Shown here: positions 50,372-58,788 of the stretch, in pieces
Numbering within the stretch: position 1 is the stretch's first letter
How the letters are laid out: every line of letters starts with the position of its first letter
Assembly: GCF_018622995.1 (NCBI RefSeq)
Contig: NZ_CP076022.1
Span: 806,001 to 870,000, forward strand
Source of the DNA: Arthrobacter jiangjiafuii
GTDB taxonomy: Bacteria; Actinomycetota; Actinomycetes; Actinomycetales; Micrococcaceae
Direction of reading: 5' to 3'
Length of the DNA: 64,000 bases
The notes under the pieces: model-generated
The model's database searches: none
The model's input: only the letters and a program-made list of their open reading frames with translations
What the model was told of the DNA's origin: nothing
Position numbers and translations under genes: made by a program

Positions 50372-50400
50372 TTTCGGTAAATGTGGTGTAGAGTCATACT
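50372..50400 (+). promoter_or_regulatory. Likely promoter of the first cold-shock gene
   Basis: CATACT (50395-50400) as -10, with TTTCGG (50372-50377) as a weak -35 at 17 bases. It corresponds in position to the better promoter of the second cold-shock gene. Transcription would start near 50407, giving a 5' leader of about 135 bases. Confidence 0.45.
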
Positions 50401-50430
50401 CAGTTGTTGGTTGTTGCGCATTTTATTTCA

Positions 50431-50522
50431 AGTGGCGAAACCCCAAACGGGCTAGCCGCTTTTTCTGTAGAAGCGGTAAGGAACACCGCGACTGAAGCTC
50501 CCCGAAAGTCGGGATCTGCTTC
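50431..50522 (+). ncRNA. Structured leader RNA of csp gene 1
   Basis: Hairpin I: AGTGGC (50431-50436) with GCCGCT (50455-50460), with an inner CCC/GGG pair, followed directly by five T, so it looks like an intrinsic terminator inside the leader. Hairpin II: GCGGT (50473-50477) with ACCGC (50485-50489). Hairpin III: GAAGC (50494-50498) with GCTTC (50518-50522), inner CCCGA/TCGGG. The same three elements, with compensating base changes, precede the second csp gene at 52889. Probably temperature- or protein-responsive control. Confidence 0.65.
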
Positions 50523-50542
50523 ACTCCAGAAGGAATATTAAA

Positions 50543-50746
50543 ATGGCTACAGGTACCGTAAAATGGTTCAACTCCGAAAAGGGCTTCGGCTTCATCGAAC
50601 CCGATGACGGAAGTGCCGACGTGTTCGCTCACTACTCCGCTATCAACTCCAATGGTTACAAGTCCCTGGACGAGAACCAGAAGGTTAGCTTTGATACCGA
50701 GCAGGGCCCCAAGGGTCCCCAGGCTACGAACATCCAGGCGCTCTAA
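50543..50746 (+). CDS. cspA: Cold-shock protein, CspA family (copy 1)
   Basis: A 67-residue single-domain nucleic acid chaperone with the RNP1 motif KGFGFI at residues 16-21 and RNP2 as VFAHY near residues 30-34. It binds single-stranded RNA and DNA. AAGGA before the ATG is a normal ribosome binding site; the long structured leader and strong terminator indicate a single-gene, post-transcriptionally controlled unit. It differs from copy 2 at only a few residues. Confidence 0.95.
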
Positions 50747-50785
50747 TCTAGAGACTTCTATTCAGTACTTGTACTGAATTGCCTT

Positions 50786-50820
50786 ACAAAAGCAGGACGG
50801 GTTTCCCGTCCTGCTTTTGT
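50786..50820 (+). terminator. Strong intrinsic terminator of csp gene 1
   Basis: ACAAAAGCAGGACGGG (50786-50801), loop TTT, and the exact complement CCCGTCCTGCTTTTGT (50805-50820) form a 16-bp stem with a T-rich 3' arm. A smaller inverted repeat, TTCAGTAC/GTACTGAA (50761-50778), precedes it. Confidence 0.88.
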
Positions 50821-50887
50821 TGTTTAACCCGGCTTCCGCGCCGCCCGCCGCCCGGTGCCAAGCGCCTCCTGCGCACGAGGCGGGGGT

Positions 50888-50910
50888 GCGGGGGCCTTGG
50901 GGACCCCCGC
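50888..50910 (-). terminator. GC-rich hairpin after the glutaminase gene
   Basis: GCGGGGG (50888-50894) pairs with CCCCCGC (50904-50910) just beyond the 3' end of the leftward glutaminase gene. No T-tract is seen. Confidence 0.45.
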
Positions 50911-50929
50911 CCGCATCAGTCCGTCAGTA

Positions 50930-52792
50930 TCAGTCCATCGCCCGCAGGGCGCTTTCCCGGATGTACTGCTCCACTCGGGTATAGGCATCCCGGGTCAGGG
51001 CTTTCCAGAGTTCCACCGCCAGACGCGGATCTTCCTCTTCGAGCTGCTCCATCGCCTCGGCCGTGAGGACCTTGAGCCGGACCTGTCCGGCAGCCTTCAC
51101 CGTGGTTTCCTGCCGCTTGTCGCTGCTCAGCGCCATCTCCCCAAACGTCATGCCCGGGCCCAGCGTGGTCAGCTTGATCCGCGACCCGTCCGGCGCCGGC
51201 ATGGAGGTGGCGATCAGGCCCGAGACAATGAAGAACACCCCGCCGAACCGCTGCCCCACCCGGCGGACCACATCGCCGTCGTCGTATACCCGCTCTTCCA
51301 TCAGGTCCTGGACGGCCTGGGCGTCCTCTGGCTCGAGCTGGTTCAGGGCAGGTGAGTCAATGGGCTCCATGGTGTCCGGCAGCACCAGCTCGCTTCCGTA
51401 TGCCGAGATCAGCTGCGATTCGCAGTATTCGACGGCGGCGTTGCGGGTCGCGAACGACGGGACTTCGCGGCCGCGGCCGGTTAGATCGTTGGAGACGGTT
51501 CCCTCCGAGTCGACGAGCACCAGCCCCCGGCCGGTGGCCGCGAGCATGTCGGCGGACTCGGCGAACAGCCGCAGCGCCACATCCGAGACTTCGTCGACAC
51601 TGCGCAGGTCCAGGACCACCATCTCGACGCCGTCCTCCAGGGTGGACAGTGCCCGCACCACTGTCTCGGCGCCGGCGAAGAGCAGGTCGCCGTTGAGCTC
51701 GAGCACCTGGGCGCGGTGGCCGTGGCTGCGCAGCACCTCGGCGGCTTCGTCGGTGCGCCGCATCCCCGAAGGCGCGGCGGTGATGTCATAAACGTTGCGG
51801 ATGGCGGAGCGGCCGGTGCGTGCGGCGCGGACGAAATGCAGCTCCATATCGTGCGAGATCCGCTGGCTGGTGGCCACCCCGCGGACGCTGGAACCGTGGG
51901 CGTCCAACGGGGGAGAGTACACGGCCAGCCCTACCTGCCCGGGCAGGACGGCGATTGTTCCACCGCCCACACCCGACTTGGCGGGCATGCCCACGCTGGA
52001 GAGCCAGGCGCCGGCGTCGTCGTACATGCCGCAGGTGGCCATCACCGAAAGCACCCGCTCCACTGAAGCGATATCCAGCACCTGGTCACCGGACAGCGGA
52101 TTGCGGCCGCTGTTGGCCAGGGTAGCCGCCATCATCGCCAGGTCCAGCGCATTGACCATCACCGAGCACTGCCGGAAGTAGTCCTTGATGACCGGCGTGG
52201 GATCGGACTCGATGATGTCGAAGGACCGCAGCAGATAGGCCAGGGCGTGGTTGCGGTGGCCCGACTTCAGCTCCGAGCGGTAGATCCGCTCGCTCACGGT
52301 GAGCTGGCGGCCCGCGAAGGCCGAGTATGTGTTCAGGATCCGGTTGAAGCGGGTGACGCCGCCGGAGCCGCGCACCAGGGAGGTGGCGGTGAGCGCGCCG
52401 GCGTTGATCATCGCGTTGGCCGGGCGGCCCGTCCCCTCGGCCAGGGACATCTCATTAAAGGAGTCACCCGAGGGCTCCACGTCCACCTTCGCGTCCACGG
52501 CCTCCATGCCGCGGTCCGCCAGTGCCAGGCCGTAGGTAAAGGGCTTGGAAATGGATTGGATGCTGAATTGCTCGCGGGTGTCGCCGATCTCGTACACGTA
52601 GCCGTCGGCGGTGGCCAGGGCGATGCCGAAGTTGTCGGGGTCCACGTTGGCCATCGCCGGAATGCTGCTGTAGGGCTTTCCGTCCCTCAACTCCGCGATT
52701 TCGGTATGGATCCTCCGCAGGTAGTTTTCGATCGGGGAGGACGGGGCGGATGGGGACGCCGAGGCGGCGGAGATGGAGCCAGTGGAACGCAT
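50930..52792 (-). CDS. glsA: Glutaminase fused to STAS and cyclic-nucleotide-binding domains
   Basis: A 620-residue fusion. Residues 20-320 are a serine-dependent beta-lactamase-like glutaminase that converts glutamine to glutamate and ammonia; the catalytic SxxK is Ser80-Lys83 (QSISKPF), and GRPANAMINAGAL follows near 117. Residues 345-450 form a STAS domain (VVLDLRSVDEVSDVALRLF). Residues 470-605 form a cNMP-binding domain (GVFFIVSGLI, GPGMTFGEMAL), although the usual phosphate-cassette Arg is not evident. The extra domains presumably regulate activity or location. The gene lies between the two cold-shock genes, on the opposite strand. Confidence 0.88.
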   Translation of the reverse strand: MRSTGSISAASASPSAPSSPIENYLRRIHTEIAELRDGKPYSSIPAMANVDPDNFGIALATADGYVYEIGDTREQFSIQSISKPFTYGLALADRGMEAVDAKVDVEPSGDSFNEMSLAEGTGRPANAMINAGALTATSLVRGSGGVTRFNRILNTYSAFAGRQLTVSERIYRSELKSGHRNHALAYLLRSFDIIESDPTPVIKDYFRQCSVMVNALDLAMMAATLANSGRNPLSGDQVLDIASVERVLSVMATCGMYDDAGAWLSSVGMPAKSGVGGGTIAVLPGQVGLAVYSPPLDAHGSSVRGVATSQRISHDMELHFVRAARTGRSAIRNVYDITAAPSGMRRTDEAAEVLRSHGHRAQVLELNGDLLFAGAETVVRALSTLEDGVEMVVLDLRSVDEVSDVALRLFAESADMLAATGRGLVLVDSEGTVSNDLTGRGREVPSFATRNAAVEYCESQLISAYGSELVLPDTMEPIDSPALNQLEPEDAQAVQDLMEERVYDDGDVVRRVGQRFGGVFFIVSGLIATSMPAPDGSRIKLTTLGPGMTFGEMALSSDKRQETTVKAAGQVRLKVLTAEAMEQLEEEDPRLAVELWKALTRDAYTRVEQYIRESALRAMD

Positions 52793-52824
52793 GTATCCAG
52801 CTTAACGAGTAGTCCGCCCAGAGG

Positions 52825-52853
52825 GTGACGCGCCAGAGGCCCCTGTGTATACT
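52825..52853 (+). promoter_or_regulatory. Promoter of the second cold-shock gene
   Basis: GTGACG (52825-52830), a 17-base spacer and TATACT (52848-52853) form a good vegetative-type promoter. The start would be near 52860, making a leader of about 145 bases. Confidence 0.65.
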
Positions 52854-52888
52854 GAATCGCGTTGCAGTGTTGCGCATCGTGCGTTCCA

Positions 52889-52984
52889 AGCGGCGAAACC
52901 CACATCAAGGGCTAGCCGCTTTTTCCGTACGGTGCTGCGTACGACACCGCAACATGAAACTACCCGAAGGTCGGGAGTGGTTTC
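52889..52984 (+). ncRNA. Structured leader RNA of csp gene 2
   Basis: Hairpin I: AGCGGC (52889-52894) with GCCGCT (52915-52920), inner CCC/GGG, followed by five T. Hairpin II: CGGTG (52930-52934) with CACCG (52945-52949). Hairpin III: GAAAC (52956-52960) with GTTTC (52980-52984), inner CCCGA/TCGGG, with the same 2- and 4-base internal loops as in copy 1. Differences between the copies keep pairing, which argues for a selected RNA structure. Hairpin I resembles a premature terminator. Confidence 0.65.
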
Positions 52985-53003
52985 TTTAGAAGGATGATTA
53001 AAA

Positions 53004-53248: not shown

Positions 53249-53276
53249 GCAGGACGGGAAGCAATTCCCGTCCTGC
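53249..53276 (+). terminator. Intrinsic terminator of csp gene 2
   Basis: GCAGGACGGGAA (53249-53260), loop GCAA, and TTCCCGTCCTGC (53265-53276) form a perfect 12-bp stem. The GCAGGACGGG core is shared with the terminator of csp gene 1. Confidence 0.82.
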
Positions 53277-58571: not shown

Positions 58572-58644
58572 GGTTCAGGACACACAAGGAAACACCCGTT
58601 CGGCGCGGGCAAAGCTGGCTATACTTCCAAACAGCTTCAAGAAC

Positions 58645-58673
58645 TGCGGCCGCCAAGCTCCGACTTGGCCGCA
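58645..58673 (+). other. Hairpin in a gene-free stretch, possible leader or small RNA
   Basis: TGCGG (58645-58649) and CCAAG (58653-58657) pair with CTTGG (58664-58668) and CCGCA (58669-58673), a 10-bp stem with a 3-base bulge. A second short stem, CCAAC/GTTGG (58676-58680 with 58690-58694), follows, and TATACT (58620-58625) upstream could be a -10. It lies before the toxin-antitoxin-like pair. Confidence 0.3.
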
Positions 58674-58788
58674 TACCAACCCCACGCTCGTTGGGTGGTT
58701 CGGATGAAGAAGTGGCCAGCACTCGCCCTCGGGCAACCGGTGCCGGCAAGAGCACGCCGAAAGGACCGGCGCACGCCGCCGTATTCTC

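Follow-up and report, generated by a model that had tools for sequence, protein, structure and literature searches.

A structured leader RNA of Arthrobacter cold-shock genes that appears to control access to its own Shine-Dalgarno sequence

One described leader of a cold-shock gene for comparison is that of Escherichia coli cspA (the thermoregulator family RF01766 of Rfam), in which a cold-induced rearrangement frees the ribosome-binding site (PMC8346122, available part). Among actinobacteria, the 5' untranslated region (5'-UTR) of Corynebacterium glutamicum cspA (cg0215) has been observed and annotated as RF01766 (PMC3890552 and PMC4046766, in the portions accessible), and capA of Arthrobacter globiformis SI55 is described, in the accessible portion of PMC4326396, as cold-induced in a lasting manner. 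The subject here is the leader RNA in front of two cold-shock protein (csp) genes, csp1 and csp2, in a 64,000-nucleotide stretch of Arthrobacter jiangjiafuii (RefSeq assembly GCF_018622995.1, contig NZ_CP076022.1, positions 806,001 to 870,000 of the forward strand; referred to as the window). The two copies appear to be csp leaders with a fold of their own that seems to control the Shine-Dalgarno (SD) sequence: a kind of element that is known, in a fold undescribed in the literature searched. A literature search that took in few subscription papers turned up, apart from the annotation in C. glutamicum, no account of a csp leader family in actinobacteria, and PMC6429828 and PMC2864571 make no mention of csp or cold shock on a word search.

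How does this leader compare with those already described? With E. coli cspA it shares the proposed task of governing access to the SD through RNA structure, and it is most likely a translational switch of csp genes that resembles cspA in function and differs in fold: unlike in E. coli, the partner of the SD is an upstream anti-SD strand carried by a 5' stem-loop, and no similarity between the leaders was found. With cg0215 it has in common that both are actinobacterial csp leaders, the one in C. glutamicum with a 5'-UTR that has been observed (available parts of the sources). A further likeness is to the S4 target of the alpha operon, a leader pseudoknot that governs translation initiation (PMC7858274, available part); the genes, trigger and fold differ, and homology is not implied. 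The first-pass annotation pointed to no described RNA family of this shape in actinobacteria, and Rfam bears it out: a scan of the window at gathering thresholds (release 15) returned only a SAM-IV riboswitch away from the leaders, and scans of either leader alone returned nothing except one 10-bit chance match on the minus strand. Membership of RF01766 was considered and rejected: a match of 63.3 bits, against a gathering cut-off of 78, covers 50454-50784 including the csp1 coding sequence, neither leader matches without the coding sequence, and the same kind of sub-cut-off match over coding sequence occurs in 17 of 20 related loci. The published match of cg0215, given as 60.19 bits in the accessible portion of its source, also lies below the current cut-off of 78, and since the matches in the window vanish without coding sequence, the RF01766 annotation of cg0215 may likewise be driven by coding sequence.

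The first-pass annotation had described a leader of three hairpins common to the two genes. A shared structured csp leader does exist, and hairpins I and III are part of it; a make-up of three independent hairpins is not supported. Hairpin I caps a longer 5' stem-loop (P1-P2-hairpin I), and hairpin II is rejected as an element of its own, with a z of -0.26 in the family-wide permutation test introduced below (40 clusters). Three long-range helices, P1, P2 and P4, were absent from the earlier description (Table 1). P4 joins the anti-SD strand to the SD region; hairpin III sits inside it, and P4 together with a formed P1/P2 makes a pseudoknot. Along the 3' side of the stem-loop the anti-SD strand fills the stretch from hairpin I to P2, in csp1 with an overlap of a few bases at both ends. 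We put at roughly 0.6 the probability that this leader acts in cis to control the translation of csp genes and has a fold able to hide the SD.

The comparison on which this reading rests used named loci from one genome scan (the best 80 of 594) and unnamed loci found by searching 198 genomes of the order (160 carry a csp1-like gene at E 1e-22), plus region fetches. Two sequence motifs anchored 85 of 213 distinct csp upstream regions; removal of three dissimilar ones (L051, L072 and L203), re-anchoring of five by hand and addition of L008 gave 83 leaders, which form 40 clusters at about 80% identity (the family set). The genus set holds 42 distinct leaders of the csp1 and csp2 types. Anchoring by motif overlooked some members that a covariance model can detect, such as L182, and L018. 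As the two strands of a helix shift in position against one another, helices were assessed by an alignment-free test, in which the energy of the duplex that a leader forms from its own pair of strands is set against the energy after strands are exchanged among clusters (20000 permutations, n = 40). For control strand pairs z lay between -1.5 and +2.4.

By this test hairpin III is conserved in relatives far beyond chance. Its own strands form a duplex of -15.7 kcal/mol, as against -10.6 for swapped strands (z -12, 0 of 20000), and they surpass the median swap in 37 of 40 clusters and are favoured in 39 of 40 when swaps are confined to the five nearest relatives; against shuffled strands the mean z is -2.7, and its covariation score is equalled by none of 500 shuffles, the pairing surviving two-sided changes. 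One true change of this sort separates the two copies in the window, as had been pointed out: GAAGC/GCTTC (50494-50498/50518-50522) in csp1 corresponds to GAAAC/GTTTC (52956-52960/52980-52984) in csp2. The core CCCGA/TCGGG is identical, as also stated earlier; the internal loops, described then as identical as well, agree in size (2 x 4) and differ in sequence.

P4 behaves similarly. Own strands reach -14.5 kcal/mol and swapped strands -11.6 (z -6.8, 0 of 20000; z -6.6 in narrower windows), own pairs exceed the median swap in 34 of 40 clusters and are favoured in 30 of 40 among the five nearest relatives, and the mean z against shuffles is -1.4. At least three of the six SD-core bases are paired in 37 of 40 clusters, a count made without a swapped control. 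Within the genus, with the register fixed by the T run and the final AGAARGA, the two octamers form eight of eight pairs in 29 leaders, seven in 12 and six in one, a mean of 7.67 that falls to 4.5-6.1 when the strands are slid by one to three positions. A strand conserved in its pairing with the SD and changing in coordination with it, as expected of an SD-sequestering leader, is what was found, yet no single column pair reaches significance.

Within the genus the helices of the 5' stem-loop gain support as well: P2 has a z of -6.0 (0 of 20000, n = 29; own strands above the median swap in 21 of 29) and P1 a z of -4.4 (0 of 20000, n = 31; 19 of 31). The genus alignment contains quite different versions of P2, namely UUUUAU/GUAGAA in csp1, AUCGUGCG/CGUACGGU in csp2, GCAUGUU/AACAUGC in L265 and GGAC/GUCC in L146, and one pair of P1 is U-A in most genus leaders and C-G in L268 and L270-L272. 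In an alignment of 31 family leaders, 96.4% of the 248 cells of an eight-pair P1 core are paired, compared with 16-75% when the strands are slid, and P1 is favoured over swaps with the five nearest relatives in 27 of 40 clusters (mean shuffle z -0.6). For hairpin I, the strands named in the first-pass annotation were confirmed (AGTGGC 50431-50436 with GCCGCT 50455-50460; AGCGGC 52889-52894 with GCCGCT 52915-52920), and so was the replacement of U-G by C-G, which concerns the third pair from the A, and not the second, and is one-sided; taken alone, it is for that reason weak evidence. Across the family the hairpin I duplex, tested by the crude device of halving the region at its midpoint, has -13.5 kcal/mol with own strands and -11.1 with swapped ones (z -5.4, 0 of 20000). 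We regard hairpin III and P4 as strongly supported and the evidence for P2 as good; for P1, and for hairpin I outside the genus, it is moderate. The comparison backs hairpins I and III, P4, P2 at the level of the genus and the position of the best model matches at csp genes, with P1 less firm.

Where does the transcript begin? In 39 of 40 cluster representatives the GUUG element is preceded by a TANNNT element that ends 7-11 nucleotides ahead of it (4-11 being allowed), compared with 5.1% at random positions, and because this -10-like element lies just ahead of the GUUG element, the P1 5' strand is probably the 5' end of the transcript, which would start at or near it.

Table 1. Features of the two csp leaders and their genes, in window coordinates; sequence tokens are given with the strand they denote
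Feature	Positions	Strand	Remarks
csp1 -10 promoter element TAGAGT, predicted	50389-50394	+	
csp1 P1 5' strand	50401-50415	+	50401-50406 pairs with 50489-50494; 50412-50415 pairs with 50482-50485
csp1 P2 5' strand	50417-50426	+	pairs with 50467-50475, A50420 unpaired
csp1 hairpin I	50430-50461	+	7-bp stem, internal loop, 3-bp CCC/GGG tip
csp1 anti-SD strand UUUUUCUG, P4 5' strand	50460-50467	+	pairs 8/8 with 50527-50534; contains the T run
csp1 P2 3' strand	50467-50475	+	
csp1 P1 3' strand AACACCGCGACUG	50482-50494	+	
csp1 hairpin III	50494-50522	+	core CCCGA 50501-50505 / UCGGG 50509-50513
csp1 SD region CAGAAGGA, P4 3' strand	50527-50534	+	
csp1, cold-shock protein, 67 aa	50543-50746	+	PF00313, E 4.2e-32
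csp2 -10 promoter element TATACT, predicted	52848-52853	+	
csp2 P1 5' strand GUUGCAGUGUU	52861-52871	+	pairs with 52943-52953
csp2 P2 5' strand	52874-52883	+	pairs with 52926-52935, 10 bp; RNAduplex of P2 region -19.3 kcal/mol
csp2 hairpin I	52888-52921	+	
csp2 anti-SD strand UUUUUCCG	52920-52927	+	7/8 pairs with 52987-52994
csp2 P2 3' strand	52926-52935	+	
csp2 P1 3' strand GACACCGCAAC	52943-52953	+	
csp2 hairpin III	52956-52984	+	core 52963-52967 / 52971-52975
csp2 SD region UAGAAGGA, P4 3' strand	52987-52994	+	
csp2, cold-shock protein, 67 aa	53004-53207	+	PF00313, E 1.2e-31

The leader has counterparts in related bacteria. With the csp1 leader as query, blastn hit all 25 of 25 genomes of the same genus, the host among them, and hit 22 of these twice; none of 14 genomes from other families of the order was hit. 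The layout is common to Arthrobacter, Pseudarthrobacter, Paenarthrobacter, Cryobacterium, Cellulomonas, Actinotalea, Cellulosimicrobium, Frigoribacterium, Diaminobutyricibacter and Candidatus Ruania. A covariance model, R1, built from P1 and hairpin III of 31 leaders, was run with strict filters on 393 genomes of the class, 47 of which have a match at E 0.01; the 18 best places (E <= 2.4e-5), four of them seeds, all lie directly upstream of a csp gene, and its two matches in the host genome at E 0.01 are the csp1 and csp2 leaders. Csp genes also adjoin two places with weaker scores (1.6e-4 and 0.0055). At the place next after the best 18 (L242, 2.7e-5), and at 13 other weak loci that were fetched (L243-L255), a strict csp pattern found no csp gene, a result that is uncertain, as the pattern failed on three known csp loci (L231, L235 and L236). 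Among 110 csp loci, which are the most csp1-like of those listed with some near-duplicates skipped and not a random sample, R1 matches 44 at E <= 1e-4; 14 of these are seeds, and one (L116) is csp1 itself, a seed as well. L018, from a Micrococcales metagenome-assembled genome, and L237 and L238 look like divergent members. Csp leaders of Streptomyces (L050, L057, L066, L069 and others) carry GTTGCAGT just after a -10-like site; they are long, mutually very similar and of another layout, and could form a leader family of their own or one distantly related to this.

How could such a leader work? Its 5' stem-loop, P1-P2-hairpin I, would start at or near the first transcribed base and would carry the short, pyrimidine-rich anti-SD strand on its 3' side, after hairpin I and before P2. 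By pairing with the SD across hairpin III, this strand would cover the ribosome-binding site, and P4 might thereby prevent ribosomes from binding. P1/P2 and P4 could compete or cooperate as a switch, whose balance cold, or a Csp protein acting as RNA chaperone, may shift towards an open SD. The comparison supports control of the SD, and neither the direction nor the existence of a temperature response follows from it; a response to cold is something we infer. One tentative version, to be held with some doubt, is that P1-P2 forms in the cold and keeps hold of the anti-SD strand, allowing translation of csp, and that the stem opens in the warm, the freed strand closing the SD.

Several results weigh against SD control in this form. 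A column-wise covariation analysis with a tree-based null gave no significant pair among 8778 (best E 1.6), and the permutation tests leave relatedness in, csp1-type and csp2-type leaders being two clades. The motifs used for anchoring are the P1 strands themselves, so that tests of P1 are biased by selection; its family-wide z is weak (-1.6 or -2.2, depending on the window), and the 31-leader family alignment contains no covariation of P1 beyond composition, 97 of 500 shuffles pairing as well, so that at the level of the family P1 is best called consistent, not proven. P2 is weak family-wide (z -2.3, 318 of 20000; mean shuffle z -0.34). Support for hairpin I is uneven: own strands exceed the median swap in no more than 23 of 40 clusters and nearest-relative swaps in 25 of 40, with a mean shuffle z of -0.32, and the signal comes from part of the clusters. 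P4 of csp2 contains a C-A mismatch. Finally, among other csp leaders whose 5' element is similar, 12 clusters (25 leaders) carry no anti-SD signal (z -0.08), and extension of the anti-SD strand to Streptomyces, Nocardioidaceae and other csp leaders is rejected; one of these clusters, L210, is itself a weak match to the model (E 6.9e-5). Folding adds to this list. Equilibrium predictions from 5 to 42 °C, made on the leader and the start of the coding sequence with models that hold no pseudoknots, co-transcriptional folding or proteins, make no temperature switch visible. Predicted accessibility of the SD over this range is 0.29-0.44 in csp1 and 0.24-0.50 in csp2, slightly lower in the cold; for the 40 representatives the figures are 0.38 (10 °C) and 0.35 (37 °C). 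P4 has a probability of 0.26-0.42 in csp1 when coding sequence is included, and of 0 in csp2 and in either leader by itself; P1/P2 dominates the equilibrium fold of csp2, and hairpin I reaches just 0.02-0.38 in the csp1 leader alone.

Which other functions might the same features serve? One possibility, also to be treated with reserve, is autoregulation, in which Csp binds single strands of the leader and opens or closes the SD, temperature acting only through the level of Csp. Csp proteins are described as binders of single-stranded nucleic acid that melt secondary structure (available part of PMC7858274), and the best model matches sit at csp genes; such a mechanism would fit alongside translational control by SD hiding, not exclude it. 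A role chiefly in mRNA stability, with the 5' stem-loop shielding the message from nucleases or exposing it to them depending on temperature, seems rather unlikely. The P1 5' strand is probably at the extreme 5' end, and the E. coli cspA transcript is stabilised in the cold (PMC7858274, in its available portion), but the conserved pairing of the SD would be left unexplained.

More improbable still is a terminator role, put forward in the first-pass annotation as cold-controlled: hairpin I and the T run behind it would form a conditional premature terminator, which halts transcription unless cold or Csp protein permits read-through. TTTTT does follow hairpin I directly in both copies, as had been noted, and at least four T occur there in 42 of 42 distinct genus leaders; over the family, however, a run of at least four U is present in 15 of 40 clusters and missing from 25, and since seven of the 15 belong to the genus itself, there remain 8 of 33 clusters elsewhere that have one in the region after hairpin I. 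Five U among the eight bases past the folded hairpin are found in 5 of 40, a rough figure as the fold often merges P2. A simple terminator scan passes over hairpin I, whose stem is interrupted, and flags instead the core of csp2 hairpin III (52963-52975), in a total of four sites where shuffles lead one to expect 2.2. A hairpin and U tract conserved among relatives, the mark of an attenuator with an intrinsic terminator, is thus not what the family displays, and with only 8 of 33 clusters outside the genus keeping four U in a row, a terminator conserved across the family is unlikely; within this genus alone the T run may yet serve as a terminator, if with low probability. The bases of the T run are accounted for by P4, and as pairing of the SD is kept in 37 of 40 clusters while the U run is kept in 15 of 40, the run is better explained as part of the anti-SD strand. 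That the region acts as DNA, as a promoter or a binding site for a repressor with its pairing incidental, can be set aside as highly improbable, since own-strand pairing of hairpin I, hairpin III and P4 beats all 20000 permutations and that of hairpin III persists through two-sided changes, even though the block GUUGYAGUG is conserved in sequence right after the -10-like element and the strict column-wise test yields no significant pair.

As to the surroundings, csp1 and csp2 are separated by a gene on the opposite strand (50933-52792) that encodes a glutaminase fused to STAS and cNMP-binding (cyclic-nucleotide-binding) domains. The host genome (3.59 Mb) has five cold-shock domains, and the nearest csp relatives that bear names, among the matches listed, are from Arthrobacter. 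Folded singly, the csp2 leader is more stable than its shuffles (z -4.1, 0 of 200) and the csp1 leader mildly so (z -1.5, 19 of 200). Downstream of both genes lies a near-identical hairpin, GCAGGACGGG...CCCGTCCTGC (50792-50814 and 53249-53276), a probable terminator common to the two copies; the terminator scan flags both on the minus strand. The SAM-IV riboswitch (RF00634) is at 58635-58758 on the plus strand, with 66.5 bits over a cut-off of 38.

What would SD control by this leader mean? In the literature searched, the control of actinobacterial cold-shock genes is little described next to that of E. coli, and a conserved leader with a defined anti-SD strand offers a mechanism that is directly testable and a second architecture to set beside the cspA leader. 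It also carries a caution, in that sub-threshold RF01766 matches in actinobacteria can stem from csp coding sequence. If the proposed response to cold is true, this would be an undescribed actinobacterial cold switch, answering the same problem as E. coli cspA by an unrelated, pseudoknotted RNA; within this order, the leader may serve as a marker for possibly cold-regulated csp genes.

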